Positions 943-40,344 of a stretch of DNA of 64,000 nt are shown here, in pieces. A program made the position numbers and the translations under genes. Within the stretch, counting starts at the first letter, position 1, and each line of letters begins with the position of its first letter. The notes beneath the pieces were generated by a model that saw only the letters and a list, made by a program, of their open reading frames with translations, was not told the origin of the DNA and did not search any database. The DNA comes from Neckera pumila (lineage: Eukaryota > Streptophyta > Bryopsida > Hypnales > Neckeraceae), in NCBI GenBank assembly GCA_963969595.1, contig OZ018414.1, forward strand, positions 17,467,660-17,531,659, given 5' to 3'.

Positions 943-963
943 TTATCTTCGGCCCAAAGATAA
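943..963. repeat. 21 bp palindrome copy between FCP1-like gene and left-edge ORF
   Basis: Near-palindrome of the window-wide family: TTATCTTCG, centre GCC, then CAAAGATAA. It lies in the gap between two minus-strand coding regions and abuts the ATG of the left-edge ORF. Confidence 0.7.
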
Positions 964-1135
964 TGGAAGACATGATCGCAACACAAGACAAATAATAGCA
1001 GTGCAAGAAGACGAAATAAAACACCACAGACAATAGGACTACATAATGAAATGAAATATGAAAACTTTAATTATACAGAAGAATGAAATATTACAAAAAA
1101 TACCAATTCACACAATGTACAGTGCCTACTAGAGT

Positions 1136-2017
1136 CTAGGTTGACATGGCGAAGGTCCTTTCCTTGACATTCTTCTCGGCCTCGGGCTCTATCACTAAAT
1201 TCATCCCCGGTAGGACATAACGCGATCCTAAATACGTGGCGGATTCCTTCAACCCACTCAAGAGAAGGTCAACTCTGTACGAGGTTTCCGTCATGGGGCT
1301 CTCCCCAATCCAGTGCGAGTCTACATACTCCCGCAAGCGCCCCGTTGGACAGTCCTCGTGGAGTTGCGTCAGCCATGGCATGAGCACTCCCATCAGTGCT
1401 TGGTCTTTCCGCACGTAATGATTCCAGCTCTCTAGAAATATGGCGTTTCCGTTCTCATTGAGGACACTCTTTAAGGGGGAGTCGTCAATTAGAATGGTAT
1501 TCTCTTTATTAAAAGCCGTTGGATCACCGGGATCTACGAACAAGTGATCATCGAGCACTTTGAGGAACAACGGCTTGAAGGGACTCCAAGCGTCGTTAAG
1601 GAACTTCTTTTTCGAGGTCTCTACCATCCTGCACTTGTCCTGTCCTAGGATGTCGAAGGGAGATTTAGAACAGTTTTGGAACAGAAATCCCGCGATGGGC
1701 TCCACGCTCTTCTTCAATATGGAGCTCCAAACTACGACGCGACTAGCAATGCTGGAGACCTCATCTAGGAATTCCCTCAAGCCCGGACGAACGAAGATGG
1801 CCTTGGTGCCCACCATGGTGGGGTGCCTGTCGCTAAACTGATTATCGTGGACTTCGTATTTTATTTTGCCTGTATACTGCGACTTATTTATGCACTCGCA
1901 TAGCACGCCATTCAGGTCAAACACAATGTTCAACCACTTCTGTGGCGGCTTAACCACTACTGAGGACACTCTTCGCGGCACTCTCTCCGCGCGCCCCCCT
2001 TGTTCTACCTGATGCAT
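1136..2017 (-). CDS. FCP1/NIF-like HAD-superfamily phosphatase-like protein
   Basis: The single open block encodes about 293 residues. It reads as an FCP1-like (NLI-interacting factor) domain of the HAD fold. NIVFDLNGVLCEC about 35 residues in corresponds to the DxDx(T/V) motif I, but the second Asp is Asn. FVRPGLREFLDEVS and VVVWSS form the motif II region, and ILIDDSPLK is the DD motif near residue 180. Known family members dephosphorylate proteins such as RNA polymerase II tails; the Asn at the acid/base position makes activity here doubtful, though DLNG variants are common in plant FCP1-like proteins. The start is either the ATG at 2017 or a splice acceptor (GCATCAG then GTAGAACAAG) with the exon starting at 2008. 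The stop is TAG at 1136-1138. Confidence 0.75.
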   Translation of the reverse strand: MHQVEQGGRAERVPRRVSSVVVKPPQKWLNIVFDLNGVLCECINKSQYTGKIKYEVHDNQFSDRHPTMVGTKAIFVRPGLREFLDEVSSIASRVVVWSSILKKSVEPIAGFLFQNCSKSPFDILGQDKCRMVETSKKKFLNDAWSPFKPLFLKVLDDHLFVDPGDPTAFNKENTILIDDSPLKSVLNENGNAIFLESWNHYVRKDQALMGVLMPWLTQLHEDCPTGRLREYVDSHWIGESPMTETSYRVDLLLSGLKESATYLGSRYVLPGMNLVIEPEAEKNVKERTFAMST

Positions 2018-2549
2018 GCATAACACAAGAGAGATGAGGTTACCTGTTGAAACGCAGAATCATGAGAGCCATAAAACAGCAACAAGCAGAGATTTCCACT
2101 AAGTGATTGCAGAACCCCTCCGTTAAGAGATTGTTTGAGAGCTTTCGGACGGAGCTCACTTTTTATTCTTTCGGGCTGGTCACAAGCATGGACAAAGTCA
2201 ATTCATTAGACACGATTCAGTTGAAAATGTGTCATTCATATTTATTTCAAAATAATATATGATACAAGCGTTTTTAGCGTTTGCTGATCACTAGCGGATT
2301 TCGCACAAGTGCCAACTACCCTCCGTTCCTATCTATACACTATGCTACTACAAGATGTCACAAGTGGACAGTTTGTAGATGCCCACAATCACTGACTGTT
2401 CACTCCCCCCTGAAAGGCAGAATGAACGGACATAAGTGCCTACGACTTTGTGAATGACAATTAGATGGAATGCCCACAAAACATCCATCACAAGGCAGTT
2501 CACATACTCATGAATAATTGTAAGGGTCTGAAAATGGAGAAGGCTGTAC
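2018..2549. other. Gap between two minus-strand coding blocks
   Basis: No convincing coding frame on either strand. It would hold the 3' end of the acidic coiled-coil exon and the promoter or first intron of the FCP1-like gene. No palindrome copy was seen here. Confidence 0.4.
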
Positions 2550-3977
2550 CTAATCCGTCTCCATGTCCTCGCCCTCATTAAGATACACCCCGTAATCGAG
2601 AGTCTCGTCGTCATCGTCGTCGCCAGGGTTCTCCATTTCCCATGCTCCTCGTGGAAGTGCCGGCGTCTCAGAAGGGGCACTGGGTTCAACAGGGACATTT
2701 TCCTCCTGCGTCTCTGGGATCAATGGTTGTTGGAACTCCAAGGTAGGAGACTGCCTTGAGATATCCTCGCCTCGAGAATAAACTTCAACAACAGGGGATC
2801 CTTCTGGAGCCGTTTCGAGGTGCGGCATCTCAAGCGCAGTAGCAGGCTCAATCACTAGGGGCAGGACGGATGTTACAATCGCTTCTAAAGGATTGCTAGT
2901 TTCTGCCTCTTGCGTCTGGAGGACTTGGGGCTCATTCGCACATTGGGCAGGAAGAGGAACAGGAACAGGATTATCTTCGTTTCGAAGACAATCCTCGGAG
3001 GTGTCCTTCTTGGCTTGCTCGACGGAGGCTTGGGAGGACTCGCCCACAACATGGACATCACTGCCTCCCTGCTGAGACAATGACTCGCCCTGCGATTGGG
3101 CTGCGAGCTTATGCCTGAGCTCTTCAATTTCTTTTGCCTGCTCCTCCCGTTCTCTTGCGAGCCTCCTGTTCTCTACTTCCTGCTCCATACGTTCTCTCTC
3201 CAGCCTTTTATTGTCCTCCTCCACCTTCTTCACCCGTTCTCTCTCAATCCTCTCTTCCTCCGCCTTCTTAATTTTATTCAAGTCCCACTGTGCCCAGAAC
3301 TCCCTGTTTTCCTTCTTCACGGGCCCCAGCGCCAAGGAGACACTTCCGCCAGCTTCAGTCTCAGTGGCCGACTTCTCGGGGTCCGTCTCGGTCCCAGTTT
3401 TCTCCCCCGAAGCCTCCGCGGAGTTGTCCCCCCTAGATGGTCCAGCCTGATCCACTTCCGGCCCACCATAGTCGAAAGTCTCCATGTCGGAGTAGGTATC
3501 CATGTCGTTGTCCTCTAAATCGATGACTTCATATTCTGGCTCTTTCCCCTTATCCTTCTTCCTTGCCTCCGCATCAGGCTCGTGAAGTTCCACGGTTACG
3601 TCCTCCGGCTCCCGGTTTTGCACTTGGAAGCTCTCCGCCTTGACTTCCATTTCCCCGACCCCGAGAATATCATCGTTTGTTCCGAACTCGTTAATACCGA
3701 GTTCGTTAGTTCCTTGCTGTCCAACGTCTTCTTGAACGACCTCTTCCCTCGCTTCTTCATGTACTTCCTCACGCTCTGTGCCTTCTCTTGAAGGCGTGGA
3801 GTCAGAATTCATTTCAGGGGTCCCAAGAAGTCGTGGCCGCACATAATTTGCGAGGTACGGCGAGTTGTCGTGAAGAAAGTCGTTTATGCCCGTCCTCTCG
3901 CCATGATACGCAACCACCTTGCGGTAGGATTCTGTTTCCTGTCTCCCTTGGATTGCGTAGCAAGTGAGGCCATACAA
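2550..3977 (-). CDS. 3' exon of INGQYSI gene: acidic, coiled-coil tail
   Basis: Open for 475 codons. It starts at a good acceptor (TTGCGTGGCAG then TTGTATGGCC) in the same phase as the upstream exon, which ends GCAAAG before GT. The first residues (LYGLTCYAIQGRQETESYRK) look like a continuation of the methyltransferase-like region. The rest is low complexity. It has acidic segments, a probable SUMO-interacting motif (EVIDLEDND near residue 150), and a strongly charged coiled coil of about 70 residues (KKAEEERIERERVKKVEEDN onward, roughly 3110-3310). The end is acidic and Pro-rich, with a TAG stop at 2550-2552. A degenerate palindrome copy at 2761-2781 is translated as VYSRGEDI. Function unknown; the tail suggests a scaffold or chromatin-associated protein. 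Confidence 0.6.
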   Translation of the reverse strand: MYGLTCYAIQGRQETESYRKVVAYHGERTGINDFLHDNSPYLANYVRPRLLGTPEMNSDSTPSREGTEREEVHEEAREEVVQEDVGQQGTNELGINEFGTNDDILGVGEMEVKAESFQVQNREPEDVTVELHEPDAEARKKDKGKEPEYEVIDLEDNDMDTYSDMETFDYGGPEVDQAGPSRGDNSAEASGEKTGTETDPEKSATETEAGGSVSLALGPVKKENREFWAQWDLNKIKKAEEERIERERVKKVEEDNKRLERERMEQEVENRRLAREREEQAKEIEELRHKLAAQSQGESLSQQGGSDVHVVGESSQASVEQAKKDTSEDCLRNEDNPVPVPLPAQCANEPQVLQTQEAETSNPLEAIVTSVLPLVIEPATALEMPHLETAPEGSPVVEVYSRGEDISRQSPTLEFQQPLIPETQEENVPVEPSAPSETPALPRGAWEMENPGDDDDDETLDYGVYLNEGEDMETD

Positions 3978-4263
3978 CTGCCACGCAAATGTAAAGAGTT
4001 AGAAAATTCTGCTCATTTGACAAACACCAAGTTAAAGAAGACATTATCATCGACACAAAGATAAGGGACCAGCAACAGTCGGCCCACTATCTCTAATGAC
4101 GTAACGCAGTGTATTCTATACAATCCCACTAATTTCAGTCAGGTAGTTTATCTTCGAGTCGAGGATAAACAAGGGAACCACTGCGTATAATCTGCAAATG
4201 ACTTCACTGCATTGTTTATCTTTGACTCGAAGGTAAGGTGGGCGATCTCTCATAGAGTTCTAC
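3978..4263 (-). other. Intron (286 bp) carrying three palindromes
   Basis: GT at 4263-4262 (GCAAAG then GTAGAAC) and AG at 3979-3978 on the minus strand; both flanking exons are phase 0. The intron contains three copies of the 21 bp palindrome: 4044-4064 (degenerate), 4148-4168 and 4216-4236. Confidence 0.65.
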
Positions 4264-5740
4264 CTTTGCCGCGATCATGAGCTTGGACCCCGTGTAAATG
4301 CCCAAGACGTTCTCCCCTCGCACTACAAAACTCTAGAGTATGTCTATGTAGAACTCCATCCTGAGTTCGCTCTTGTGCATCCTCAGCTTGGCCTCCATGT
4401 GCTTTGCAAAATCCCGGTAGTACAAATTGTCCGACGTTGCGTACTCCCTCCTCATGTTGTCCACACCTTTAGGCGCACCGTCGTCTCCCCTCTTGAAGAG
4501 GAAGAGGAGGGTAAACGGAGGCACTATCTGACGATTGCTCAGGCCGTCCAGACGCTCGGCCTTGCATGGAACGTACGTCGAACGTTTCATGGCGAAGGAC
4601 TTTATTTTCTCCCTTGCGAAGGAAATGGCTGCCTCTTTGTCGAAGTCATTCCCAAGTACCCACATCCACACGTCCGGAGTGCCCATGCTCGGCCTGAAGT
4701 GATCATGCAGGAAGTTGAGGAGAGTTTGAACCGGTGCGGGGTCCCCGGATCCGGGAGCAGGCCTCGGGACCTGGCGGAAGTCTATTACCGCAAGGGGAAG
4801 CGCTCCTCTGCGGATTGCCCAGGTCGAGCTCATGCAGAATCCTTGAGGGTAGAATACGTGTCCCCGAATGAAGACCTGTCCGTCCGGCTTCTTCACGCGC
4901 TTCTTGAGCTTCACGAAGCGCTCGAACATGGGGAAGACTGTAGGAAACGGCTTCTCTTTGTAGTCTTTTGCCCTCTTCAGCTTCCCCTAATTTGTGAGCC
5001 GTCTTGTGAAGAAGCCGTTCGGTGGGGCGTTGAGAAGGAAATCCCACGACGCGAAGGTGAAGAGGTTCTTACGCTTCCAAGCCCTCCAAACATTGTCGAT
5101 GACGTCGTCGTGCTTGTCCTTGCACTTTAAGTTCTTGTCGCTGACCATGAGCTCATCTAGGATGACCTTCTTGCGCTTCCTGCGCTCCACCCAGTTCTGC
5201 CCGCTTGAACAGTCCACCTTCAAGTGAGGAACCTTGTGGACGGTAAGTTTCGGCCACGACAACTCTCGCCCGGGTGTGCGCCCAAGTAAATGAACAACGT
5301 ATTCCTTGAGGTCTTTATCTGTGAAATGCCCCAGGTGCTTGAAGAACTCCCGCTTCAGAGTGAAGCTCCTCGGCTTGAATGTATCGGACTTCTTGTGCGG
5401 TTCCATCGTGACGGGATCGAGGAGCTCTCCGGCCATATGACTCGTGATGAACTCGTCCCACATACGGTACACGCCGTCCGCCAAGGTTATTATTTGGACT
5501 TCGTTGTTGACGTCCGAGGATTTCTTCACCTGACTGCCATCCTTTTCTGGGTTGATGCTCTGGAAGCGGATTATGACAGCATCGATGAATTTTTGCATCC
5601 ACCGGCAATTGTACTCAACATCGTTAGAAAGGGCATATTGATGCAATGTTACGTTTATCTTCGAGCCGAGGATAATGAGGTGGGGTTCATCATCAAGGTA
5701 ATCGATCCTGGCATTGAAGACACAGCATTCTAGGCAATAA
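4264..5740 (-). CDS. Middle exon of INGQYSI gene, methyltransferase-like, two in-frame TAGs
   Basis: One minus-strand frame is open from about 5740 to the donor at 4263, apart from TAG at 4989-4987 and TAG at 4335-4333. Coding character continues past both: after the second comes SFVVRGENVLGIYTGSKL, ending exactly at a GT donor. GENVLGIYTGSKLMIAAK resembles the S-adenosylmethionine-binding motif of DNA N4/N6 methylases (GD.VLDPFxGSG...A); I see no DPPY-type catalytic motif, so this is only a likeness. Upstream, WMWVLGNDFDKEAAISF and QIVPPFTLLFLFKRG are ordered, hydrophobic segments of a folded domain. A palindrome at 5655-5675 is translated in frame as IILGSKIN. The simplest acceptor for this exon, TAG then TTATTGCC, does not match the phase of the preceding donor, so an indel or another splice choice is possible. 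Confidence 0.6.
5655..5675. repeat. Palindrome copy inside a coding exon
   Basis: TTATCTTCG, centre AGC, CGAGGATAA on the plus strand. On the minus strand it is read in an open frame as IILGSKIN, between a DYLDDEP segment and a segment beginning VTLHQYALS. Of the six frames through the consensus, two per strand are open, so the insertion need not break a gene. Confidence 0.7.
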
Positions 5741-5807
5741 CTACGAGCAAATGAGATGTAAACAAATTATCCTCGATCCGATGATGATCATGTGGTCACA
5801 GTCTCAC
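5741..5807 (-). other. Short intron with a central palindrome
   Basis: The donor is GTGTACAAG then GTGAGACTG; the acceptor is TTGCTCGTAG (or a later TTGCCTAG, giving 78 bp). Both candidate frames have stops between these sites, so an intron is needed. A degenerate palindrome, 5767-5787, sits near its middle. Confidence 0.5.
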
Positions 5808-7277
5808 CTTGTACACATCTTCGGCAAATTCAGCCCTGTTATTACAGATCGCAGCCTCGCCCTTAACATATGTTGGCCTCCTGTATGATATCCATTTTTC
5901 TTTGCACGCTGAGATCTGGTTTCCCCATGTCGGCTGGCTGTGGACGATGTGGTTTGCTGCGTTGTGCCACCGGGATATCTCGGTCAGCTAGGCTGGATCT
6001 CTGCTCCAGACGATTCTCGCACTCCACGTCTGCAACTCAACCTTTCTTGACTGTACTACGCCTCCATCTTGCAGCATTTTGGCGGTAGTGATGCTGTACT
6101 GGCCGTTGATGATGAAAAAGTTCCCAGCTTTGATGGCATTCCAGTCTTTAGGTCGCTCCTTCAGGAGTTTCCTGGTTTCGTCCATGGGTGTCAAGCATAT
6201 CGTCTGCCGCTTCCTCATGTCGGGCATGGCTATCAGCTCTTTCCGCTTGTCATCCACCACCGTTGCCTCCAGCTTCCTGATGACGTACTTCGGACGGGGC
6301 AGGAAGCACTGCTTGATATTGACTTGGAATACTTGCTCGTCGAACAGGAAGCATTTGGCGTGTTTCTCCTTGAAGTTCTTCTGATACTTCACCGCGATTT
6401 CGTAGTCAGGGGTTTTTACAAGCTCTCCCTTTGGTGTGGGTGCAACGTTGGTGAGAGCAGATCCGGAACTCCCTGCAGCTGTGGGTCGCTGTTCTGCTGC
6501 TTTCTTCCGACGCTTGTCGCTTGTTTCCCCTGCTTCAGGTTCCGCGGACTTCCTCTTCTGAGGTTCAGATCTCGCGCTTCCTCTCCCGCTGCCTCTACTT
6601 GCGCCTTGACTGGTCCCTCTACTTCCTCCCTGGCTGCCACCATGGGTTCCTCCTCGACCGCCGCGCTGGCTCCCCGACCTTCCACGCGCGCCTGACCCCA
6701 ATAAGGGTTCAATCATTCCCGGCCGAATACGGGACCATCGTTGTGCTTGCTTCAGAAGCTCTCGAAAAATTAAGTTCAGGGTCCGAGATGTTATGACGGC
6801 GTCCTGTTTCCCCCACGGACCAAACGCCGTGCGTATGTCTTGCGCTATGTCTTCCTTACTGATGGCGTTGAGTTCGAGTAGAAGGGCTTCCATGTCGAAC
6901 TGACCACACTCGTCCTCCTCGTGCATGACGATCGAGTGAGTGTGTTTAATTTCTTCACCATTATCGTGGAGCGCGTGCAGTGTGAGAACAGTATACTTTG
7001 TTTGGTGGTTTTCGATTAGGGTGACCTTCTCATTGAGGTTCCAGTTCAAGAACTGCTCGGTTCCCTTCACGCGGTGCCGCAGGTATATGTACTCCTTGGA
7101 TGGATTCACACCAAACGTCCAGGCTTCCACCACCGGCTTGAATTGCCATAGCTTTCCGTAGATTCCTTTGTAGTGGATGATGAACGGTTCGTCCTTGATC
7201 CATTTGTTGAACGGCTCCAGGAATGGAAGTGTTGACGAGTAGTTGTAGTCTGAACCGTCTGCCTTTATGCTTCTTTC
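5808..7277 (-). CDS. 5' exon of INGQYSI gene: ParB-like motif, RGG-type linker, in-frame TAG
   Basis: The exon opens after a CTGCAG acceptor at 7283-7278 and runs to a GT donor at 5807. It is open except for TAG at 5990-5988, after which about 60 codons continue (TEISRWHNAANHIVHSQ and onward). The first part is a folded domain (EAWTFGVNPSKEYIYLRHRV). Next comes a Gly/Arg/Ser-rich stretch (about 6560-6700) with RGG-like repeats and two basic clusters (KRKS, KRRKK), likely nuclear localisation signals. The last part carries NFFIINGQYSITTAKML at about 6081-6116, resembling the DGQHR-type loop of ParB-like nucleotide-binding folds. The upstream exon was not found. The simplest model is a nuclear, nucleic-acid-linked protein, possibly now a pseudogene because of the TAG codons. 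The N-terminal extension through the palindrome array is not credible coding. Confidence 0.6.
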
Positions 7278-7619
7278 CTGCAGCGGGTCATGTGGATCAT
7301 TAGTCTTTGTACATTGATGTCTATCTTCGACTCGAGGATAATGGATAGGGAATCTGCATTCTAAGTTGGTTAAGAGTGTATGTGTATGACGATTGTTTTG
7401 ACTGATGCGGTCGTTGTTGGGGTCATCTAAGTTATCTTCGCATCGAAGATGGTTTGGATTCTTAGATTTATATGGTTTTAGTTGTTTAGGATTCTTGATG
7501 CCCCAGCCGTGGCGGTTGCGATTCATGTTATTCTGGTTGCTGGGTTCTTTTTTATTGGGATTTGCTTGAGTATTGTTTAATGTTTTTTTCTGATCATTTA
7601 TTTGATCTCTTGTATTTGG
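7278..7619. repeat. 5' flank or intron of INGQYSI gene with two palindromes
   Basis: This region has no convincing coding sequence. Palindromes lie at 7321-7341 (centre ACT) and 7432-7452 (centre CAT, last bases changed). It ends in the splice acceptor of the first recognised exon, so it is probably intronic. Confidence 0.5.
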
Positions 7620-8150
7620 ACTGTTGCTCCACGCAAGGAGACAGAACTTGAGGTTTATCCTCGGGTCGAAGATAACCCAAAGGTTATGTCCCTTGCATTT
7701 CCACCATGCGCTCGCCCAACAGCTCCATTTATCCTCGGGTCGAAGATAAATGGAGCTGTGGGGTGAGCGCATGGTGGAAATGCAAGGGGCATAACCTCTG
7801 GGTTATCTTCGACCCGAGGATAAACCTCAAGTTCTGTCTCCTTGCGTGGAGGCAATGCGCTCACCCAGTAGCTTCATTTGTCCTCGGCTCGAAGATAAAT
7901 GGAGCTGTTGGGCGAGCACATTGCCACCACGCAAGGAGACAGAACTTGAGGTTTATCCTCGGGTCGAAGATAAATCTCAGGTTATGTCCCTTGCATATCG
8001 GCAATATGCCCACCCGGCAGAGCCATTTATCCTTGGACCGAAGATAAATGGATCTGCGGGACGGGCATATTGCCAATATGCAAGGGACATAACTTGAGAT
8101 TTATCTTCAACCCGAGGATAAACCTGAGGGCTGGGCGAGCACATTGCTAA
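7620..8150. repeat. Regular array of seven palindromes joined by alternating inverted spacers
   Basis: Seven 21 bp palindromes have centres near 7665, 7739, 7813, 7888, 7963, 8037 and 8111, giving spacings of 74, 74, 75, 75, 74 and 74 bp. The six spacers are diverged copies of one 53 bp sequence, and orientation alternates at each step. Typical parts are GGTTATGTCCCTTGCAT, CGCTCGCCCAACAGCTCCAT and their reverse complements. Partial spacers flank both ends. The array can therefore fold as nested hairpins: one perfect-looking stem of about 110 bp per arm is centred at 7739, with others at 7888 and 8037. I know no named element with this design. Confidence 0.85.
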
Positions 8151-8388
8151 ACAATTCTACTCTAAACCCTAATGTTGACCTTCAGCACGTGGACAGAGAG
8201 TGTGAACTTTCACACATGTTGTGAATTCTAGAATTTTGGGGCGAAAAAGCAATGCAATTTCAATAGAATTACTAACCTAGTATGACAAGTAGGTGCACTG
8301 TGGCTGAAGCTTCCGAATCCAAATTGTGAAAATCTACACAACAAACAAACATTGGTGACTGTGAATGCTTTCTACAAGTTAAATACAC

Positions 8389-8567
8389 TGAATGTAGCAT
8401 CATGTGAATGGAAACTAGCCTAGCTAGAAAATCAGAAAAGGCTAGCATTAAAAACATGAATCACAGCAAATTGACATTGAATATAGCATCATGTGAATTG
8501 CAACTAGCCTAGCAATAAAATCAAAAAAGGCTAGCACTAAAAACATGAATCACAGCAAATTAGTATC
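8389..8567. repeat. Tandem duplication, about 88 bp x 2
   Basis: Two adjacent copies start TGAATGTAGCATCATGTGAA and TGAATATAGCATCATGTGAA and share GGCTAGCA(T/C)TAAAAACATG and AATCACAGCAAATT. Confidence 0.7.
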
Positions 8568-9540
8568 ACAAATTGAAGAGATTCCATTGCGTCCTAAACC
8601 CCAAATCCAAAATCCAGCAAGTGCACCCCTACTGGGAAGCCAAACCCTGAATCCTACAAACTTAAAAAACAGCCTAAAGGTACACCTAAACCGCACACCA
8701 AAACAGCTCCAAAAAATTAACACAACCAGCAATCGTCTCCAAGGCAACAGAAAGCCAACTTACACAAACATGGAGGTACTAGAAGCAACGGATCACATTA
8801 CGCACAACAATCATCACAGGGACTGCGGATTGCGATTACTATACAGCATAGGTCAAAACCAATAGCAGGAGACACAATGCAGGAAAATCATAAAACGAGC
8901 TTTCACGCAACTAAAATTTCTTCTCCTTGCAGAATCCCAAGAAACCCAATTCTTGAACGAAGACAATTCAGCAATGCAAGTTGAAAGCAAGCTTCAACGA
9001 AAGTTCAAGTGTTTCAAGCCAAGCTTGTAAAATTTTGAACATCGAACTTCACGATGAGCTTCAAATTAAAATTACACGACGAAGTTGCGGAAAAGCTTAC
9101 AGTAGTATACGTAGGAGCAAGCTGAATAGGAAGTGGTGAGGCCACAAAATCAAAAACGACTTTGAAGAAGAACACTGATGCTCCACTGCAGCAAACTGCT
9201 CTCCCGCGACAAACTGCCGGCCTGTGAGGCCACAAAATCAACAACGACAAACACCGATGCTCTACCGCGACCCAAAAATCAGGAAGAAGAATATCGTTGC
9301 TCCTCCGCAAAAAGAACAGAACAACTGAAGAGAAGAGAAGGTGGGAATGAGACAAAGAAAACGCGCTTCTCGGGGAAGCAATAGCGACAACAACAACAAA
9401 ATCTTCAGCGCGCTCCTGGAAACGAAGGAGAAGAATGACGAATGCTGCTTCTCCAGCTGCGAGATGACTTCCCAAGCCTGCGCCGAGCCGCCAGTCCTGG
9501 TTTGGTAAGCCCCCAACCCTATGGTTTGGTTCCTAGTCTA
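8568..9540. other. Mixed-composition stretch without a supported gene
   Basis: Several overlapping ORFs on both strands have poor amino acid composition. The GC-richer part (9100-9520) could be a promoter or 5' region of the minus-strand gene, but no exon could be defended. Confidence 0.3.
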
Positions 9541-9595
9541 CATTGTGTTTTTCTTTGTTTGTTTGTTTGTTTTCTTTGTTTGTTTGTTTATTTTG
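9541..9595. repeat. (TTTG)n simple repeat
   Basis: Runs of TTTGTTTGTTTG, interrupted, next to a T-rich segment. Confidence 0.8.
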
Positions 9596-9659
9596 TGAGA
9601 AATATTGTAGTTTGTATGTCCTTTGTTTTGGTTCTCATTGAGCTCTTCGTTTACCTTTT

Positions 9660-12600
9660 TTGAAGACTAATGTACGAACATTATTCCATAGCAATTAATC
9701 CCTAAAAGACCAAGGAAGTGTCCAAATTTACAAAATTGTAAAGATCTATTTTAGAATGCTACTTACAATATTATTTTGACCCCTAAAGGACCAAACGTTG
9801 TTTTCTGGCAATATAGGAGATTCGAGTAGCTTATTGCAAACAAAATTATTTTTATCATTTGAAAATTTCAAACAATATGTGCCTAAGGAGTACCTTCATA
9901 GGCCAACAATTTTCAAACCTTCTGACTAATATATGGTTAAAAAGTTATTAGATGATATATCATTTTCTATGGTTGGAAGGCAACTTTTTTTTTTCTTTTA
10001 AATCTCTTCTAAAGAAAATAAATATTTGAAATTGCTTTTGTATTAGATGCAAAAAGTAGAAGCACAGGATGTATATTGGGTTTTTTTAATCATTATTTAC
10101 AATCGTTCGGATGGATTAACATTGTTCATTTCCATAATTAAATTATTGACAATTGAATGTTTTTAAATATTTTCTATTTCTTCCTACAATCTATTTTTAC
10201 CCTAAACGTTATATAATTGAAAATGATTTGAATTTTTTCAAGAATACGTCCTATACTTGCTTTCAAGAATAAATCCAAGGAGTACCTACCACAATGAACA
10301 TTGTTTCATTTAAATGTTTCATTAGAAAGTGCAGCTGTCTCATTTTCCATAAGGCCAAAAACCGGATTTCTGTCAGTTTATATGAAAATGTCTAACTTGC
10401 AATCTAAAAGGTGGAAAATTTAAATCTTTTCTACATCTTTTTAAACAAGCTTACTCAAAGATCCAAAGGTGACCTTTTTTCAAAAGTGTTTTTGCTTTAA
10501 AATGTACTTGTACTAAAAATGGTAGATTTTGAGCATTTCTGATGAAAATTAATCATGAGCTCCAACCTTTAGGGGTGAAAAATGACTGAAACAAAACTTG
10601 TAAACAAAGATCACATCCATACTTATGGTTTGGTCAGCAAATACATGAATTAATCAATATTTTTCTATAAAATAGACAACCAAAAAATAAAATTAATTCT
10701 CAAATTCATACTAGATAGAATATTTTTGATTTTTTACAAGATTGTTTTTCCCAATATCTTTTGAACTACAGAATATTTGCAAAGCAAATTTTTGTAATCC
10801 ATATCGAAAAAGTGTTAAAGAATTATAATAAGAATCTCAAAACATTATTGATGAATGAAAAAATTGCAGTTTTTTGAGCTTGGGTTGTGGTTGTGTTAAT
10901 TAATTGTTAAATATTTGCATTCATGGTCCTTTCGGGGTCAAACCAAGAGTGAAAATGTTATAGAATTCCAATGGGAATTTTTTATGAATTTCAAAATACA
11001 AAAAAAGGACTAAACTTCGTTGTTTATTAAAAAATAACCTAAAACGTGTCTAGCACATATTTGCGCTTCGCACATATTGGTGCACCGTGTTTATTTAATT
11101 TCTAATGAAAAAACTTGCACTATAGTAAGGCACTCATTGCATCAAAATATACAAAATATTGTAATTAGATCTATATATTTACAATTTTATTAGATTCCCA
11201 GCACAAATTGTAGGCGCTTGTCAATTACAAATGTTCATTTCATTTGCTACTTCTAATTATTTATTGGAACTGTAAAATCTATCAAAAAAAAGTGTAATTA
11301 TACGAAATTGGAAAATTATTATAATTTCTACCTTGGTGCCATGAGTGTAGTCGTGGAATTGAAAAATGCCAATTACAAGGGTTGTAACGTTGTAATAATC
11401 AACTTGCACCTAGTATTTTAGTAATTTTTCAAAAATAATAAACATTAAGTTTCATGATAGAGGTTTTGGTTTATTTGAAATGAGAGATGTCTGATTTCAT
11501 TTTACAGTACAGATTCCTTAACTATCCTCAAACAAAAAGCGTCATGAATGTCATCAATCTCATTAATGAAATTTAAAATGATTTTAAGGTTTCCACACTT
11601 TATAAATGAAATTCACTTATATTGTAGAACTTCAACCAGCCTGTCCTTTCTAGAATGAAATTCAGAAGATAAATATTTGCATTTTTGTCCTGCCGTACAC
11701 TTGGATGAAATTGGTTACAAATTAATTCAAAATACCATTATATATGGCATGTAATGCAGTTTCCAATATTTGGAATATGCCATAATTGACATTTCTACTA
11801 ACTTTCTACAAATTGAACGCCCTCAAAACTTTTGCAATCGACTTTCTAATCATGAATTAAATAAAATCTTTTGAAGTATATAAAAATGTAAAAATATGAA
11901 ACTATAGATTTTAAAATAATTTCAAATTTATGTTTATGGAAAAACGATTTACTCATAACTGGAGAATGATCCAAAATAACTAATTTATAAAGAAATATGT
12001 AGTTGTTGAACTAAAAGAAAGCCAACTCCAAGGATGGAAATTTAAAAAAAAACAATCTACAATCAATTTTTTTATTTTTTTTGGACATATTAAAAATTAA
12101 GGTCAATGGAAAACATTCAAAAAATATTCTCTAGTGAATTTTCTCATGAGTTTCATCTTAATATTAGTAAAAATGGAATGATTTAGAAATTTTTACTTTT
12201 ATGTATTAGATGTATGAACTCAATTCAGTATTTTAATTTCATTTCTTGGATTATTAGGGTACTCAATCTCTTTGGATTCTACTTGAAATCATTTCTAAAT
12301 TGTTGATATTTTGGTACTTCATAAAATGCTTTATTGCATATATTATTAAGTTAGAGCTTTGTAATGATCAATGATCATACCAATGTATAGAATAGTCATT
12401 AATTTACAGACTTTACCTTTTATTTTACAAACTTCTCTTTTAGTAAGATATATAATAATTGAAACTAGAATTGAATGAAATTTCTCACATTTATTAGGAA
12501 TTAAATCATTTTTTGTTAAAGCTGTTGTTTAGGGTTCACTGAAAACTCTTACCCAGAATTTAGAATTGTATCTTTATCCATTGAAGTCTGTGAGTTTTGT

Positions 12601-13554
12601 TTTGTTTTAAAATTTCTTCTAAGCATTTTCAACAGTTATTTAAGTTTATAAAACATTTGAGATAAAATTCCAAAAACTATTGTGCATGGTTTATCTTTAA
12701 TTTGTTTTACTGTAGTTTGTTATCTTTATATTGTAGTGTGCATGAATAATAATAATTGAGTAGGTAAAATAAGAACTTGTTTTAGCTTGGACCCAATGAG
12801 AAACAAAAGTTCTAAAAACATATTATTGAAGACCTAGAGTTTGCATAGCATCAAAATTCTCAAATAAACATTTGCATTTATATATTTCTATATTGTAAGA
12901 TTCTTATTATTATTTTACATAGGATCTTTTAGTACCAAGCAGGCACTCCTAAAATTTTTTGGCTCCTAAACTTTGTATTTTGAAGGTCAACGTAAAAAAA
13001 CTAGTTCTATATCAATGATGCCAACGCTTATTTTGAGGCTCTCATATTTTTTCAATAAATTGAACCAGCAGCCAACATTTTGATAAGTTGAATTACATTT
13101 CTCTAAAGTGTAACCATAGTACTTCTAAGGGGATATGTTAGAAATCACATAGGCAAAATAAAAGGACAATATCATTTAAGAATTGAAAGATTATAATGCT
13201 TGATCATGCGTGTGATCAAACTATAAAAAAATTTTAGCTCTCTTTTTGCTTGCCAAATGAAAAATAATTCAAACCAATAAAATATGAGTTTCAATTTATA
13301 ACATCCCCAGTGAATTTATAACATTCCTAAATCTACTATTATTACAATTGCTCTATATTAATTTTTAGTGTGATTGTCTCTACAAAATCTCTTGTATGTG
13401 AGATTCAATTCAAAGAGCCTTTGAGAATATGAAAATTCAAGAAAGAAATGGGCACCTTCGTACAAGATTTTAAAAAGAAATATTGCAACCTTGCACCTTG
13501 CAAGATTTCGAAGATGTCAATATGATTTTATAGAACAAGTTAGCGAATATACAG
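9660..13554. other. AT-rich gene-free stretch with decayed repeat ends
   Basis: No coding frame or RNA gene was seen. Degenerate copies of the TTAACCCCTAAAGG-type terminal motif appear near 9698, 9780, 10570 and 10930, suggesting eroded members of the family seen intact at 41-58 kb. Confidence 0.4.
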
Positions 13555-13893
13555 AAGAACAACCCAAAAGCAATAGTCAACAAAATTAGAATGAATTCTT
13601 TCTTCTAGTGTAATCTGGAATTGTAGAATACCACACCTAATACCTTGAACCCTAAACCCTTCAAACCCTAAACCCTAAACCCTTCAAACCCTAAACCCTA
13701 GACCCTATAAGTTGATTCCCCCCACAAAAGAACAATCCAAAAGCAATAGTCAACTAAGTTAGAATCTATTTCTTCTAGTAAAATCAGGAATTGTAGAATA
13801 CCACACCTAATACCTTGAACCCTAAACCCTAAACCCTAAACCCTAAAATCCTTCAAACCCTAAACCCTAGACCCTACAAGTTGATTCCCCCCA
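13555..13893. repeat. Tandem duplication containing telomere-like CCCTAAA repeats
   Basis: Two copies of about 170 bp (13555-13725 and 13726-13893) share AATAGTCAAC, the block ATACCACACCTAATACCTTG, a run of AACCCTAAACCC units and GTTGATTCCCCCCAC. The CCCTAAA units match the usual plant telomere repeat (TTTAGGG). The number of units differs between the copies. Confidence 0.85.
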
Positions 13894-14845
13894 CTATATA
13901 ATATATTGAATTAAAAAAATAGCATTCTATGTACATTAGTGGCATGATGACAAATTCGTGCTGCCACTTGTCACAAACACAAACTGCAATCCAATGTTAG
14001 AAAAGAAAAAAGTTAACGAAAATGGTCGAAGGCAAGTGGGACGAACAACTCATGACTTGGACAAATGTCAAATCAGAGAAGAAGCCAAATCGCCAATAAA
14101 TGAAGCTGACAGTGTGTTCGAGAATTTGGCAGCCGAAATTGTTGTAAAGTGATATTCCCCCTATTTATCTCCCCGATTTGTGTAAAGCAAATTCCACCTT
14201 GTCTACAGAAAAGCGGCGGAATGTACGGTACTCTAATATTAAAGAAAAAGCACATTGTCAACGTCGCCGCTTACCTTTTTATGGAGGTTTCCAATGTCAG
14301 CACACCCCAAAACTGAGGAGGTTCTTCCCCCCAATGAGCAAAAAGTGTTCAACGGTTCGAAATCCAGAAATTCCCACCGTTATTTTCCCGCCATGCCAAC
14401 ACCGTCTCTCTCTCTCCGCAAGCCCCACATTTCCTCACTGCAGTCCTCCTTCATTCTCTTCTTCCATCGCCATTGCAAGCATCGCTCTGGCGCATACTTT
14501 CAGTTTGTACTTTGCGATTTCAGTTATTCTGTGCGAAAGCACTATCATCAGCGGTCCTCAGTTTCGCACTCATTCGCATAAGGTCATTGTTTTGCTTGTT
14601 GTTCATTTTCCTCTGTTTCATGCCGAGTACTTGCGACCGAAAGTACTCTGATTTCATAGGACAGTACTTGCATTCAGCCATTCCACGTCCCTGGTTTTGA
14701 TCAGATTGTCTTCAGGGCTGATTTTTGAAAGGGTGAAATTCTCGATTGCAACGCTTGTTTCTAAACAGATATCAGCTTACAGAAATGTACGCCGTAAATA
14801 CCGGAAGCGGAGATTGTCTTCACTCTCAAAGACATGAAGAAGGGA
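13894..14845. other. Gene-free stretch upstream of the palindrome cluster
   Basis: The overlapping short ORFs are not convincing. The GC-richer part (14170-14700) may be an old exon or a 5' UTR. Nothing is assigned. Confidence 0.3.
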
Positions 14846-15611
14846 TTATCTTCGATTCGAGGATAATGATAAACTGAAACGGTGAAATTATTATCTTCGA
14901 CTCGAAGATAATCTGGACTCGCTGAATCGAATTAATGCTTTAGGTATCAAAAGTGTAAGTATTTCATGATCTGGCAGAGATTATCCTCGGCGCGAGGATA
15001 GTAACGTCAGACTTGCAATGTAGTTTATCTTCGACTCGAAGATAAACATATCTCGACTACTATTATGGGGATTATTTGATGACGTTCCTCCTAGCATTAT
15101 AGAAATGTCAAATTATCTTCGAGTCGAGGATACGATAAATAGGAACACACCATCTGACTTGTTTGTCAGTGACGACTCCTTCAATTCTCTGAATTATCTT
15201 CGAGCGAACGATAACGAATTCTAGACTGTATGATGTCCTTCCACAGGAGTATCTTCGAGTCGAAGATACTCTCGTCATTCTATTGTTTTTATTTTGAATC
15301 CAGGATGGATACTCTCGGCTGTAGATTATACTTTAACTTTGAGCCTATGACAAAATAGCCGGACCGGAGAGATTTGTTCCATTAGTTTATTTTTTGAGTC
15401 TCATATAATATGTTCAGAATAGAATGGATTATCTTCGAGTCGAAGATAAATTAGTCAGGATGGAGGGTGACGTTCCACTAGATTATGTTTATGTCAGTGA
15501 TAAGATTTTTCGACTGTAATGACTCATTTGATTGGATTATTGTCAAGTGTACGATCAATTTGTCAGACCAGCAGAAATCATTTCAATGGATTTTCTTCGA
15601 GTCGAAGATAA
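14846..15611. repeat. Cluster of about nine 21 bp palindromes 5' of the DUF7869-like gene
   Basis: Copies lie at 14846-14866, 14891-14911, 14981-15001, 15025-15045, 15113-15133, 15194-15214 (degenerate), 15249-15269 (extended to a 25 bp near-palindrome by flanking GA/TC), 15429-15449 and 15591-15611. The first centre-to-centre steps are 45, 90, 44 and 88 bp, close to multiples of 44-45; later steps are irregular. Unlike the 7.6 kb array, the sequences between copies are not obviously related. The cluster ends 75 bp before the ATG of the downstream gene. Confidence 0.8.
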
Positions 15612-15686: not shown

Positions 15687-18539
15687 ATGTACAGAATGGA
15701 CAATATTTCCGCGAATGAGTTTGCGGACCCAGTGCCAACCTTGCCGCCGGGTGTCGTGCCATGCGAGGGCATCCCTCGTGCTTTGTGGTATACCAAGGCC
15801 GTGACACTCACAAATGAAGCTGGAATGGAAGTGGCAAAAGGAATTTTCCACAGCGTCGATGCAAGCCTCGTCATTGATATGGATGGGAAACCGCTTGGAG
15901 ATGACCGGGTCGCAATTCAAATTGCGGAATCTGTCTGTGAAGCTGATGTTCCATCGCAATGGATGTGGTCAATGCATTCCTGGCCCATTTCAAGGACGTA
16001 TCTCAACAGTGTCAGTTTGTATGACCATGATCAGACATTTCTGTACAAGTCGGCAATGAGTGCATCTACGCGGCGTGTTCGGGCTGGAATTCGTTCTTAT
16101 GAAAGTGCTCGACAGAGGATAGAACCGGCTAACCCTCCGAAAAAAGAAACCCTCCTCACCTCGCAAGCGATCACTCAGGTGTCAACTATGGATTGTTGCC
16201 CGAAGAATTGTTTGCAGCCATTCCCACGTGATTAGATTCAAGCGCTTCGTTCCCTCGTTCATGTCGACGGCGGGGTGAAATTACGAAAATCGCGTTTCCT
16301 TGACGCGTACAAGCAAACCCACCCCGGCGATGATGGGAAGGATATGATTACTTTGTCCCAACATGCAGTTTGTCCCACTGCTTGGTACAAAATTCATGGA
16401 ATATCACGGGCTACGTACTATAGGTATAGGGCGATGTCCAAATTCGATAAGAAGCCGGAGCACCATGGTAATCTTGGCTTGAAAAAGCCGCGGACTCATA
16501 CATTACAAGCGACGGCTACACTTCGACTTATTGTTGAGAGGGAAGCAGACCCGATGCCTCACAAATCAAGGACTCTTCAGTCCGGAGATAAGGTTCCATC
16601 CATGGTCCTGCCTTCATCATTTCAATGGAAGGAGCATTTGCCAGAGATAAACAACGTCAATTCCACATTTCAATTGCGACAAATTTCAACGAGCGGGTTG
16701 AGCAACATCCGACGAGCTTCTTTTCCAGAGTACGCTCCAAAAGCACGTGGTGACAATTTCGCTCGATGTGCACAATGTGATAAACTCAAGCAACTGAGGG
16801 CCGCTTGCACTCCACGTTCCCGTGCGCAAGAAGTTTGGACTACAAAGTTAAAGGTCCATCTCGCTGGTCAAGAGGCACACAGAGAGCTGTACTATGCAAA
16901 TCGTATGATGTCTGAGAGGTATCCGGAGAAGGTTCTTACTATAATCCACGACAAGATGGATCATTCAAAAACGGCTTCTCCCCATTATTCTCACAAGAAC
17001 AAGGGCACCGATTCTTTCATGAAGTTGCCCATTGCTATCACTGGCATGATTGCTCACGGTCATGGAGACGTGAGGTATGCGCACTACGGCTTAGACATCT
17101 TTCCTACGGACTCCAACCATACAGTGGGCTCCATTGCAAAATTGTTGCGAGATCTTGAGTCTGAACCGAAATTTTCATCACGTCAATTGTTTCCTCCTGT
17201 CAAAGATATGATTCATCGATTGTCAAAGGCTGTGCTGGAAGGCTTGGAGATTTGTGTGGACTCCCTGGCTCCTCGGTCTGAAGAAGTGGTGCAATCCCAA
17301 TGTCTTCTTCCAACATTAATTCTACAGCTCGATAATGCCGCTGGAGACAACAAAAACCGATGGGTTTTTGCATTTTGCTCTCTCCTTGTATACAGAGCCG
17401 TTTTTCGTGAAGTCTACATCAATTTCCTTCTTGTTGGGCACACTCACGAGGACATCGATGCTCTGTTTGGTCGTTGGAGCAGCATGTTGAAGACAAATGA
17501 CTACCTCACAATTCCAAGGCTCATGAAGTCCTTCATGGATTGCGAAACACAATCTGTAATTCCGCATCTAATTGAAGAGGTCCCTGATTTCAAAAAATAT
17601 GTTGAAGGATTCTTGCATACTGGCAATGATGCACTACAAGGCCATTCACAAGCGCAGCAATTCAAGTTCTACAAAGATTCGAATGGATGGCCCTTGATGC
17701 AGTACAAAATTCTTTGTACGGACGTTGACTGGTTGCCTAAAGAAGGTGGAGGGATTCGCCTATGGAAGGAGACATCTGATGGGAGACCTAAAGTGCCAAA
17801 GGGTAGTCCTAAACCTTTTGCACCGCAACCGATGCGTTGCTTCGATGAGGTTTGTAAGGGGTTAGACGGGTATATTGCTCTGTGGGGTGCAATGGCTAAT
17901 CAAGACTTGTCTGGAGAATTCCGGAGGAGAAATGCGGCAGTGATGAAGTACTGGGAAGGTGTGAGAAATGCTTTGCAAGAACCACTTGTGGGTCATGATA
18001 TATTGCGAGATGGATTTTGGCCGAATTCAATAGTCGCAAGAGAAGAAGAAGACCAATACCAAGATGATGGCAATATGCGTGAAGAGTTTGCAGAGGATGC
18101 ACCTTTTGTTGGGAAAAGGCGTGACCGTCCTCGTTCTTCATTTCGTGTAGCCCGTGATGTATATGCCGATTACTTTGTTGCAGTACGTCTTGCCGATGGT
18201 GACCTTCGTCCTTTTTGGCTTGCAAGGGCATTAACAAACCCTAGTCCAGACCCGGGGCATGTCAATTACATTCACTTGCAGTACTGGACGCCTGCTTCAT
18301 TTGAGCACATTGATGACAATACATATCTTGGATGGGACACAAAACAAGGGAATTTATGGTGTGAAGACAAGAACGTCTCTACAAGCTAGAATCATACGGA
18401 TACCCTAATGACGGCTTGGAAGCCCCGTGTGAAGGCGGCTACTACAGACCCTCGCATCAAAATCCCGAAAACGCAAATCTGCATCATCAAAGAGTCCGTG
18501 GACGCCAATGCCATTGCTAAAGGAAGCAATCCTTTTTAG
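15687..18539 (+). pseudogene. DUF7869-like, probable DDE-fold transposase-derived gene with two in-frame TAGs
   Basis: One plus-strand frame of 951 codons runs from ATG 15687 to TAG 18537, broken only by TAG at 16233-16235 and 18387-18389. Coding character continues across both; after the second, KIPKTQICIIKES looks like a genuine C-terminus. The large central block carries IHDKMDHSK, ILQLDNAAGDNKNRWVFAF and FLLVGHTHEDIDALFGRWS. I recognise these as the signature of DUF7869 proteins, common in non-seed plants and other eukaryotes. The order D(xMD), LDN and HEDID fits an RNase H-like DDE catalytic core, so a transposase origin is likely but inferred. CARCAQC-like cysteines (around FARCAQCDK) could bind zinc. 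The first 182 residues form an uncharacterised N-terminal domain. An alternative to decay is amber read-through or an unrecognised short intron. Palindromes crowd its 5' flank. Confidence 0.75.
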
Positions 18540-21000: not shown

Positions 21001-21360
21001 AAAGTTAGCAGATTTCAAGGTCGATTTTGGCCTAGAAAACGGACTTTTTTTCAAAAAATTTGTAGAAAGATAGTTGTGAAATCAAGCTAGCTTTCACCTT
21101 CAAAAATTTGTTTGAGATTTCAAGCCTCCAAGCAAAAGTTATGGACAAAAATCAGAAAGAGGTGGAAATGAACATTTTCTTTGACATTTTCAAACAGCCT
21201 CTCTGATTTTTGTCCATAACTTTTGCTTGGAGGCTTGAAATCTCAAACGGATTTTTGGAGGTGAAAGTTGGCTTGATTTTACAATTTTTCAAGTTCAATT
21301 TTCTTTGAAAAAGGTTTGTTTTCTAGGCCAAAATCGACCCTGAAGTTTGCTGATTTCACA
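21001..21360. repeat. Foldback inside the CACTA element
   Basis: The inverted arms meet near 21180. The inner arms (GATTTCAAGCCTCCAAGCAA and its complement, plus AGTTATGGACAAAAATCAGA) are nearly identical, and the outer arms (TCGATTTTGGCCTAG) are less so. The same inner-arm sequence recurs in the foldback at 23142. Confidence 0.85.
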
Positions 21361-23146: not shown

Positions 23147-23577
23147 CCTAATTAAGTGAAAATGCAGGAATTGTGCTCAAAGTTGAATTTTAGACCTCAT
23201 TTGGGCATAGTATAGTATCTTTCTTGAGAAAAAAATTTAACCAAAAGAAGTTGGAAAACCAAGCTAACTTTTATCTCCAAAAATCCGTTTTAGATTTTGA
23301 AGCCCCAAGTAAGAGTTATGGACAAATTTCAGAGAGGGGGTGGAAGGGACATTTTTTTTTACATTTTCAAACACCCTCTTTGAAATTTGTCCATAACTTT
23401 TAGGTGGAGTCTTGAAATCTCAAACGGGTTTTTTGAAATAAAACTCAACTTCATTTTCCAAATTTACTTAGTTTGAAGTTTTTTGATGTTTTTTTTTTAC
23501 TATGCCCAAATGAGGTCTAAAATTTGACTTTTAACACAATTTCTGCGTTTTCACTTAACCTTGAGTAGTGGAGCTCC
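23142..23577. mobile_element. Foldback element, about 436 bp
   Basis: The outer arms contain TTTAGACCTCATTTGGGCAT and its complement. The inner arms contain AGTTATGGACAAATTTCAGA and complement, shared with the foldback in the CACTA element. The loop is near 23350. Confidence 0.8.
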
Positions 23578-29553: not shown

Positions 29554-30375
29554 CTATGCTGCGCAATAGAAAGGTTCTCCAAAGCCATTGGCATCACCCT
29601 TTTGTACAATTCTGCATGTTGTTCGCATACGTTCCCATGTGTCTGGATCATCCATGTGATTCAGTATCTTGTCTGCATCTTGTTTGATTGCCATTGGTAA
29701 AACTGGATGGCGCCCAAACAATAAATAATAGGGTGAAAAGGAAGCCAAAGAAGCTTGTTTACTGAACCAATAGCCCATTGCTATCCACAGAAGCTGTAAA
29801 TTCCAATTTCTATGATGCCCCTTCTTCAAACTATACTTCCGAAGTCCCCTCTTGACGGTTTGCACCATGCGCTTTGCCAATCCATCCGCTTTGAGATGAT
29901 CTCGCGGAGTAGTGTGGTGATCAATCATCACTTGTTCACACAAGGTTTGAAATTTGCCAAGAAATTCATGTCCTTGGTCAGTCAATACCTTTGTTGGAAC
30001 GCCAAAGCGACTCAAAATCCTATCTAAAAAGGAATAAGCTGCCCTTTCACTACACTTGTCAGGCAATGCCACCAACTCAATTCATTTAGAAAATTGTTCA
30101 ATCATCACCAACACATACGTGTTCTGTCATTGTGTTACCGGTAATGGCCTTGAAAGATCCAAACTCCATATGTAGTCCAATCCCATGATTGGCAACGGTT
30201 GCAATTGAGGCATTGGAGCATTAAATGATGCCCGCATTCTATCACATATTGTGCATTTAGCTACCAATTGTTGAACTTGCATTTGCATACCTCGCCACCA
30301 ATAATAAATTTGAAGCAAATTGTGAGTTCTCCGCACTTCAAAGTGCCCCAAGTCCTTGTGAGCATGCATAATCAA
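29554..30375 (-). pseudogene. Integrase: HHCC zinc-binding domain and catalytic core
   Basis: The zinc-binding part (30127-30375) has the His, His, Cys, Cys ligands in order (HAHKDLGH, then KCTICDRM). The core follows in another frame: VLVMIEQFSK has Glu where the first catalytic Asp is expected, LTDQGHEFLGKF keeps the second Asp, and DGLAKRMVQ has Lys where the catalytic Glu is expected. Two of three catalytic residues are thus lost. The core continues to a conserved ASFSPYYLLFGRHPVLP segment. Confidence 0.85.
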
Positions 30376-30734
30376 CTCACTCTCTCATGAGGTTCCGGTA
30401 CTACCTTTTTATTGCCACCTAGCCAAACTCAAAGCAAATGAGTCCCCTCCATACAAACCGCTTGGCTCGTTGTAGAATCCGGTCCTTCTCCTTGGTTGAC
30501 GGGTTGACTGTCAATTTGCCATGCTTCAAGTATTTCATCACCTCCATATCATCAAAAATATCCTTAGCGCCTCTAGACTCCTCATCAACATCCACATCCA
30601 TTGTGGTCCCAATGGCTTTCTCGGTGATGTCTCCATTTGTCGCCAGCATACCCAAATAGGCGGCAAAATGCCACCCTCATAACAAATCTTCTCCCTCCTC
30701 CACGTGCCATCGAGCCCTTGTAAAGTCCACTTGG
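30376..30734 (-). pseudogene. Linker between RNase H and integrase of the retroelement
   Basis: An open frame at 30419-30655 (DDMEVMKYLKHGKL, KEKDRILQRAKRFVWRG) fits the spacer that joins RNase H to the integrase zinc-binding domain in Ty3/gypsy polyproteins. Stops on both sides. Confidence 0.6.
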
Positions 30735-31087
30735 CTAAGACTTGGATTGTGGCTCAAGCCACCAACATCCATATTTATCAAACTGGCACGGTGCACAAAT
30801 TTTGAAGTCATACACCATGAGCATTAGGGTCCACCGTGAAAGCTTGCATGTGGGCTTGTTGGACTCCATTAGCCACTTCAACGATTGGTGGTCTGTAACC
30901 AATAGAAATTTGTTACCATATAATAACAACAAAAATAAGCAATGGCCCATATCACTGCTAAACATTCACCCTCATACGAGCTATGCTGTGCTTTCACGTT
31001 GTTGTTGGAGCAACTAGCATAAGCTACAACAAACTTCTTGCCATCGTCGTCCATTTGAGTCAACACTTTGTCAATCCTTAGTGAGCT
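30735..31087 (-). pseudogene. RNase H domain of the retroelement
   Basis: Two overlapping frames carry FVVAYASCSNNNVKAQHSSY, YEGECLAVIWAI and FLLVTDHQSLKWLMES, the usual order of the RT-linked RNase H. A frameshift lies near 30900. It joins the end of the RT block. Confidence 0.85.
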
Positions 31088-32157
31088 CTAGTCGGTGTGT
31101 AATTGATATGAGTCATATGACCTACCAGAAATTGGCCTCCTTAATATGAGTGCCAATGACAAACGTTCCTTCAATTGTTGAAAGGCGGCCTCTTGTTCAT
31201 CTCCCCATATCCAAGGTTGATCATTCCTTGTCAACATGGTCAATGGCTTCGCAATGGCACTAAACGTCTTTACAAACTTTCGGTAGTAATTACATAATTC
31301 CAAAAGTGTCCGCAATCTATTCACATCTTTTGGCCTTGGAATAGACATCATCACTTCCACTTTGCTAGCAACCACTTCCAATCCTCCTGGATATATTATG
31401 TAGCCCAGGTACTCCACATGGTCATAATAAAACTTATATTTGCTTGGATGTAGTTTTAATCTGTGAAGTCTTAGTCTACCAAACACCTCCTTCAAGTGAG
31501 ATCTATGATTCTATGTTGCTTTTTATTCATGCTATAGACAATAATGTCATCAATGTAGCATTTCACAAAATCCATGGCTGATATTATGCAATCCATAACT
31601 CTTTGAAACTCAGCAGGTGCATTTTTCAAACCAAAAGGAAGGAACCTCCACTAATAAAGTTGGTCCTTTCCATCTTCATCAATTCTTCAGAACACCGTCT
31701 TGTTTTTATCACCTTCTCTTATATCAAGTTGGTGATAACTCGACCGGAGATTCAAAGTACTAAATACTTTGGTGTGGCCTATGGCATCAAAGTTCTTTTC
31801 CGGTGTTGGCATTGCATAACGATCTGACTTCGTGAATTTATTAATTCTACAATAGTCCCCACACATCCTTTTCTCGGTCCAATTTCCGAAAATGTCCTTC
31901 TTGGATTGCATAACCGTCGCCAATGCATACTCACAATCAGATGGTGCTAACTCTACCAATCCCGCCTCCAATAACTCCTTAGTCCAGGCTTGAATCATCT
32001 TACGTTCTGCCTCGCTGTACTTGTATGGCTTGCAATAAATTGATGCATCATCGGTCAAGTCAATACGTACCTCCTGTCTTTTCAAGACTCCCAAGTCCTT
32101 GAGACTAAAGGTAAAAAAATCTAAGTACTTCTTAAGGAACATTTGCTTCTCCATCAT
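31088..32157 (-). pseudogene. Reverse transcriptase of the retroelement
   Basis: The 5' part (32157-31687) includes YKYSEAERKMIQAWTKELLE, MCGDYCRINKFT and HTKVFSTLNLRSSYHQLDI. After a frameshift, the catalytic box reads KCYIDDIIVYS (31528-31560), so the YxDD aspartates are retained. The connection region follows (HVEYLGYIIYPGG, RLRTLLELCNYYRKFV, PWIWGDEQEAAFQQLKERL). Stops separate the three pieces. Confidence 0.9.
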
Positions 32158-40107: not shown

Positions 40108-40344
40108 TACTATAAGAAATCTGCGTTTTAGGTGATGTTAGCATAATTTTAGGAGGGATTTTAGAGGACTTTCAATAAAACAACGCGTGTTTTTATGTCA
40201 ATAATAACTTCCAATGAATCATCATTACAATGACTCATTGGATGTTTTTATTGACATAAAAACACACTTTGTTTTATTGGACGTCTTCTAAAATCCCTCC
40301 TAAAATTATGCTGACGTCACCTAAAACGCAGATTTCTTATAGTA
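40108..40344. mobile_element. MITE, 237 bp, almost fully palindromic
   Basis: The ends TACTATAAGAAATCTGCG and its exact complement are followed by near-perfect complementary arms (TTTAGGAGGGATTTTAGA, TTTTATGTCAATAA) meeting near 40226. The terminal ACTATAAGAAA resembles CACTA ends (CACTACAAGAAA), so a CACTA-derived MITE is the best guess. Confidence 0.85.

Follow-up and report, generated by a model that had tools for sequence, protein, structure and literature searches.

How a transposon discriminates its own DNA from that of its host, and how its recognition sites multiply and change jointly, is an open question. In CACTA (En-Spm) elements, the subterminal TnpA sites repeat a short protein-binding motif many times near the element genes. 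The worked example that we found for transposon recognition sites is that of the Arabidopsis VANDALs: the VANDAL/VANC system involves a short, element-specific motif of non-coding DNA that occurs in tandem repeats and varies from one related family to another (PMC5735166, PMC10398659). Template switching is described as making the arms of inverted repeats alike (PMC8604942); in quasi-palindrome correction and inverted amplification it can also generate inverted copies, the published accounts dealing with inverted-repeat arms and large copy-number variants (PMC8604942, PMC10766183). Among the titles and abstract openings listed in literature searches, none described a palindromic motif in moss transposons or a similar system. 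Here, we describe an array of alternately inverted repeats in a 64-kb stretch of moss DNA (hereafter the window, i.e., the whole stretch analysed), which is probably a local expansion of a transposon-family-specific 21-bp dyad, a predicted protein site, grown by fold-back copying. The wider finding is what looks, on sequence comparison, like a system of clade-specific dyads in the transposon-like DNA of mosses.

The array (7627-8147) comprises seven dyads, 74-75 bp apart, and six spacers of alternating orientation, with half-spacers at both ends that place its limits at 7627 and about 8147. The dyad 21-mers start at 7655, 7729, 7803, 7878, 7953, 8027 and 8101 (steps of 74, 74, 75, 75, 74 and 74 bp), confirming the seven evenly spaced palindromes noticed in an earlier sequence-only reading; the spacer length of 53 bp given there holds for four spacers, the other two measuring 54 bp (53, 53, 54, 54, 53 and 53 bp in order). 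That reading also took the six spacers for diverged copies of one sequence whose orientation flips at each step, and global alignment bears this out. Spacers are alignable only with every second one reverse-complemented: the nine opposite-orientation pairs score 16 to 45 when flipped versus -5 to -22 unflipped, and the six same-orientation pairs score 17 to 28 unflipped versus -10 to -15 flipped. On the two strands together, the array form of the dyad had 21 matches at ≤3 mismatches, compared with zero in 100 shuffles.

Tandem Repeats Finder (TRF) resolves the array into 3.3 tandem copies of a 149-bp unit. Because this unit is itself a palindrome, the tandem-unit and alternating-spacer descriptions are both valid, and the previous argument that tandem duplication would give one orientation only is not strictly correct, as a palindromic 149-bp unit duplicated in tandem yields the same pattern. 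The array contains two kinds of palindrome, three long ones and four that join neighbouring units. The long palindromes lie at 7627-7851 (centre 7739, arms of 112 bp, 95% complementary), 7803-7973 (centre 7888, arms of 85 bp) and 7949-8125 (centre 8037, arms of 88 bp, 90% complementary); in the first, the outer half-spacer is identical to its mirror partner across 26 bp, as judged by eye. At the joining dyads (7665, 7813, 7963 and 8111), just 17-22 of 37 positions pair. A further near-perfect palindrome of about 270 bp, perhaps of MITE type, occurs without a dyad at 40093-40361 (centre 40226, arms 88% complementary), and two mutually similar stretches, 21007-21351 and 23152-23558, are self-inverse (79% and 73%, respectively).

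The array can be described as three 149-bp hairpin units, whose arms agree by 89-92% within a unit, versus 66-79% between units. The six spacers can be paired in 15 ways, of which the pairing of mirror partners gives 16 differences and the next best 32. We counted 16 states (6 + 5 + 5) that occur on both arms of one unit and are absent from the other units, as well as 16 differences between arms (4 + 6 + 6). Such unit-private states on both arms suggest that, in every unit, the arms were copied from one another at least once following the divergence of the units. The copying across the palindrome proposed in the sequence-only reading is thereby supported, and the feature requiring it is the identity of the arms, not the alternation. 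Twenty of the 24 arm mismatches are transitions, ten of them G-U on the plus strand and ten on the minus strand; seven of the 24 fall within dyad cores, outside of which 13 of 17 are transitions and the G-U split is 6:7. Around the four joining dyads, between units, non-transitions account for 9-11 of 15-20 mismatches. The arm pattern is what we would expect from the recent decay of a methylated inverted repeat; it fits fold-back template switching at the dyads and carries no sign of RNA-level selection on either strand. The constancy of the spacing had been taken as a sign of constraint, which our results do not support: copied units inherit their spacing, so that constant spacing in the array needs no constraint, the spacers differ in length by one 1-bp indel, and the nine dyads at 14846-15611 are irregularly spaced (44 to 180 bp). 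Overall, the copying part of the earlier interpretation stands and the constraint part does not, while the dispersed, transposon-linked motif had been overlooked.

The palindrome core is a 21-bp dyad, TTATCYTCGR-N-YCGARGATAA, and both half-site forms, TTATCTTCGA and TTATCCTCGG, are present. With the symmetric consensus TTATCTTCGA-N-TCGAAGATAA at ≤5 mismatches, we found 26 sites in the window, compared with a mean of 0.9 sites, nearly all at 5 mismatches, in 20 block shuffles of the window. Seven of the sites are within the array; the remaining 19 range from 943 to 15611, two of them (2761 and 14981) at the 5-mismatch level, and the other 48 kb (15612-64000) contains none. Pair-by-pair comparison covered 13 of the 19 dispersed sites, four weaker ones having been dropped and two being absent from the list. 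In these 13, pairs 2, 4, 6 and 7 are invariant, and pairing beyond pair 12 is 1-6 of 13, leading us to reject a hairpin with freely covarying flanks. Since the letters of the 21-mer are kept in unrelated flanks, the pattern is that of a dimeric protein's site. Three compensatory pair changes among the 13 sites count against the protein-site reading, a hairpin predicting the same.

Sixteen of the 19 dyads outside the array are located in introns or upstream DNA of two transposon-like genes; one lies beside another open reading frame (ORF) and two within an acidic ORF. None occurs in homolog-backed coding DNA, which makes up about 5.5 kb within the first 18.4 kb. The first of the two genes, gene1, occupies the minus strand between 7241 and about 2550 and looks, by its sequence, like a moss transposon-like gene, the window copy being decayed (in-frame stops). 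Its first homolog-backed exon (5806-7241, 19 homologs) has an in-frame stop at about 5989, and its stretch to 5806 and the donor AAG/GTGAGA were matched to homologs by eye. The middle part (4249-5601, minus strand, 65 homologs) likewise contains an in-frame stop, and the acidic ORF (2550-3977, minus strand) is probably the last part of the gene. No family was recognised for gene1 (lowest Pfam E-value across the aligned members, 0.026), and the predicted fold of its middle domain is too poor for use (mean pLDDT 54). Two single dyads, 7321 and 7432 (7321-7452), separate the array from the first homolog-backed exon; two more, 5655 and 5767 (5655-5787), lie inside an intron (about 5805-5601), and three, 4044, 4148 and 4216 (4044-4236), in the next interval of the gene, which we read as an intron by eye. 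The acidic ORF includes dyad-like sites at 2971 (2 mismatches) and 2761 (5 mismatches), of which 2971 counts against a non-coding rule. The leftmost dyad (943-963, 3 mismatches) lies beside an ORF (1136-2026) with an NLI-interacting-factor-like phosphatase domain (Pfam NIF, E 2.1e-14).

The second gene (15696-18386, plus strand) encodes a DUF7869 protein and is preceded, just upstream (14846-15611), by nine dyads at ≤5 mismatches, three of them exact. This copy is also decayed, with an in-frame stop and a C end shorter than in its relatives. The product is probably a DDE-type transposase, the RNase H-like reading of DUF7869 being based on middling structural matches, and part of the protein resembles a helix-turn-helix by eye. 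A PDB sequence search gave nothing for alignment A1 and two chance-level matches for A2 (E 0.7). A MULE-type transposase domain had no Pfam match in six window ORFs (E up to 0.01) or in alignments A1, A2 and A3 (E up to 0.5), nor did a CACTA-type (Tnp2) domain in the same three alignments (E up to 0.5). No paper in the literature collection searched mentions DUF7869. Among the matches listed (120 of 251), the named DUF7869 relatives are moss proteins (Ceratodon, Physcomitrium), on which ground we rejected an origin from an endogenous giant virus, a candidate suggested by gene-dense, GC-shifted DNA with palindromes between genes. The rejection also rests on IMG/VR, where no virus encoded a relative or contained an exact dyad; in a collection of prokaryote genomes, an exact match to the window-type dyad was likewise missing. 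Matches to gene1 and to the DUF7869 gene have values in common for the longest contig of their assembly (80586, 295127, 606289, 223725 and 139714), a hint that the two genes are linked, although chance could also produce it.

Other repeats and ORFs accompany these genes in the window. A 175-bp direct duplication with interstitial telomere-like CCCTAAA runs occupies 13551-13894, and a tandem array with a 173-bp period and shorter internal periods occupies 47171-47750. ORFs at 29554-32157 and 33267-33794 resemble, by eye, pieces of a Ty3-type retrotransposon and a DNA-methyltransferase-like fragment; no dyads are nearby. A tRNA scan of the 64-kb window found none.

The dyad recurs in homologs of gene1. 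A scan for translated dyads covered the 204 retrieved proteins (the DUF7869 part being the 120 of 251 matches listed) and found the window type in seven (P0173, P0186, P0187, P0188, P0189, P0192 and P0195), all of them gene1 homologs, with 5, 2 and 0 hits by frame versus 0.0, 0.18 and 0.38 in shuffles. Predicted proteins of gene1 homologs often run past the exon end into the intron, and six of the seven translated dyads occur in tails beyond the exon end that precedes the dyad-bearing intron in the window. Among 15 homologs, of the 19 found, that were aligned at this exon end, 12 show tails by eye, six of these without a dyad.

The single relative with readable DNA is a 4.3-kb contig, CADCWO010000071.1 (L001:1-4327), filed under a Synechococcales (cyanobacterial) genome. 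It is probably a moss contaminant, because the DUF7869 gene that it carries, at 50% identity, belongs to the moss type. Upstream of its start codon at 604, it carries a different dyad, TTTAGCTCGA-N-TCGAGCTAAA, which occurs with at most one mismatch at 34, 114 and 489. Degenerate versions (3 to 5 mismatches) follow downstream of the gene at 3573, 3750, 3821 and 4071, and three more sites (79, 205 and 4202) appear at 6 mismatches, where 0.15 are expected. Its coding sequence has no dyad of this type. The contig lacks the window-type dyad up to 6 mismatches, and the 64-kb window lacks the L001 type at 6 mismatches. The two dyads are of equal length (21 bp), with an odd centre and a common outer TT and inner TCGA, and differ at four pairs, on both halves. 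The helix-turn-helix-like stretch of the DUF7869 protein reads SRATYYRY in the window and SPSTFYRH in L001. An N-terminal peptide of P0076, a DUF7869 protein that has near relatives in common with L001, is consistent, on back-translation, with the L001 dyad. The change of dyad between clades rests on two types, as one readable relative was found. Taken together, the recurrence in gene1 homologs and the different dyad of L001 make the dyad look like a clade-specific recognition site.

These data bear on several alternatives. A neutral mirror satellite, in which a chance palindrome in decaying transposon DNA grew by template switching and the dyads have no function, would account for alternation, arm identity and spacing through copying alone, and the gene copies in the window are indeed decayed. 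We nevertheless consider it unlikely, as the same dyad letters stand in unrelated flanks within the window and dyads follow one and the same exon end in homologs with protein identities of 38-47%, where drift would not keep them. Alternatively, the array might be a hairpin RNA locus, transcribed into 149-nt hairpins that are cut to small RNAs (a young miRNA or siRNA gene), with selection keeping the arms complementary. The RNA fold of 7620-8150 is highly stable (z = -35.7 against 100 shuffles), and one unit scores 61.8 bits with the MIR538 precursor model (Rfam RF03927). However, MIR538 has a gathering score of 100 bits, no family reached its own gathering score, and the match largely reflects hairpin shape, since several other hairpin families score 41-48 bits there. 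The dispersed dyads are also far below precursor length, and neither strand is favoured by the G-U mismatches of the arms, overall or outside the cores; lacking such strand bias, we rejected RNA hairpin selection and hold a hairpin RNA locus to be improbable.

The array could also mark the end of a mobile element, as an inverted terminal repeat of foldback type that contains internal repeats; the left side of the element falls beyond the window. The G+C content drops from about 50% on the left of the array to 40-47% between 8.0 and 9.5 kb and to 23-31% between 9.5 and 13.5 kb, which implies a boundary somewhere to the right, though not sharply at the array. Yet no full spacer copy was found elsewhere among the best 80 self-matches of 7401-8200, and dyads also occur in introns and near the second gene, leaving this reading with a low probability. 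Alternating inversions are a known read artefact, but an assembly artefact or chimera is hardly credible here because the units differ by 21-34%, and homologs in other assemblies carry the motif as well.

Under the favoured reading, i.e., local expansion of a predicted protein site by fold-back copying, each dyad would be a putative binding site for a homodimeric element protein, either the helix-turn-helix-like part of the DUF7869 protein or the product of gene1, and binding might be required either for transposition or for protecting the element from silencing. As the dyad is its own reverse complement, a departing polymerase can re-enter either way. A nascent strand that stalls in a dyad could loop back on itself or jump to the sister strand, so that the flanking DNA is copied inverted, a step that is well supported by the arm comparisons; repeated events of this kind would produce alternately inverted spacers and would have made the hairpin arms alike again after the units had diverged. 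More tentatively, moss DUF7869 elements, with gene1 as partner, may have independently evolved a VANDAL-like self-recognition, based on a 21-bp dyad whose two halves change in concert between clades and whose sites are gained by fold-back copying, a route open only to self-complementary sites and one that leaves mirror-alternating arrays. An easily recognised dyad, two readable types of it and a frozen record of fold-back events would make the turnover of sites testable by sequence comparison, and the moss family would show how clusters of binding sites can grow through a mutational mechanism, namely template switching at a palindrome.

The moss dyad resembles the VANDAL/VANC system in being a short, element-specific motif that lies in non-coding DNA, the two ORF sites excepted, and forms tandem repeats; it also resembles it in differing between related families, here as the two dyad types of the window and L001. 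In contrast, the VANC21 motif has nine bases compared with the 21 bp of the dyad, and the system described here comprises a mirror-alternating array, a moss host and the conserved domain DUF7869, with an anti-silencing role that is putative. Many copies of a short motif near the genes of the element are likewise common to CACTA (En-Spm) elements, although the moss dyads also occur in introns. Finally, the homogenisation of the arms, and possibly the inverted copies, are shared with known template-switching systems, from which this locus differs in its 74-bp step across seven copies of a self-complementary motif.
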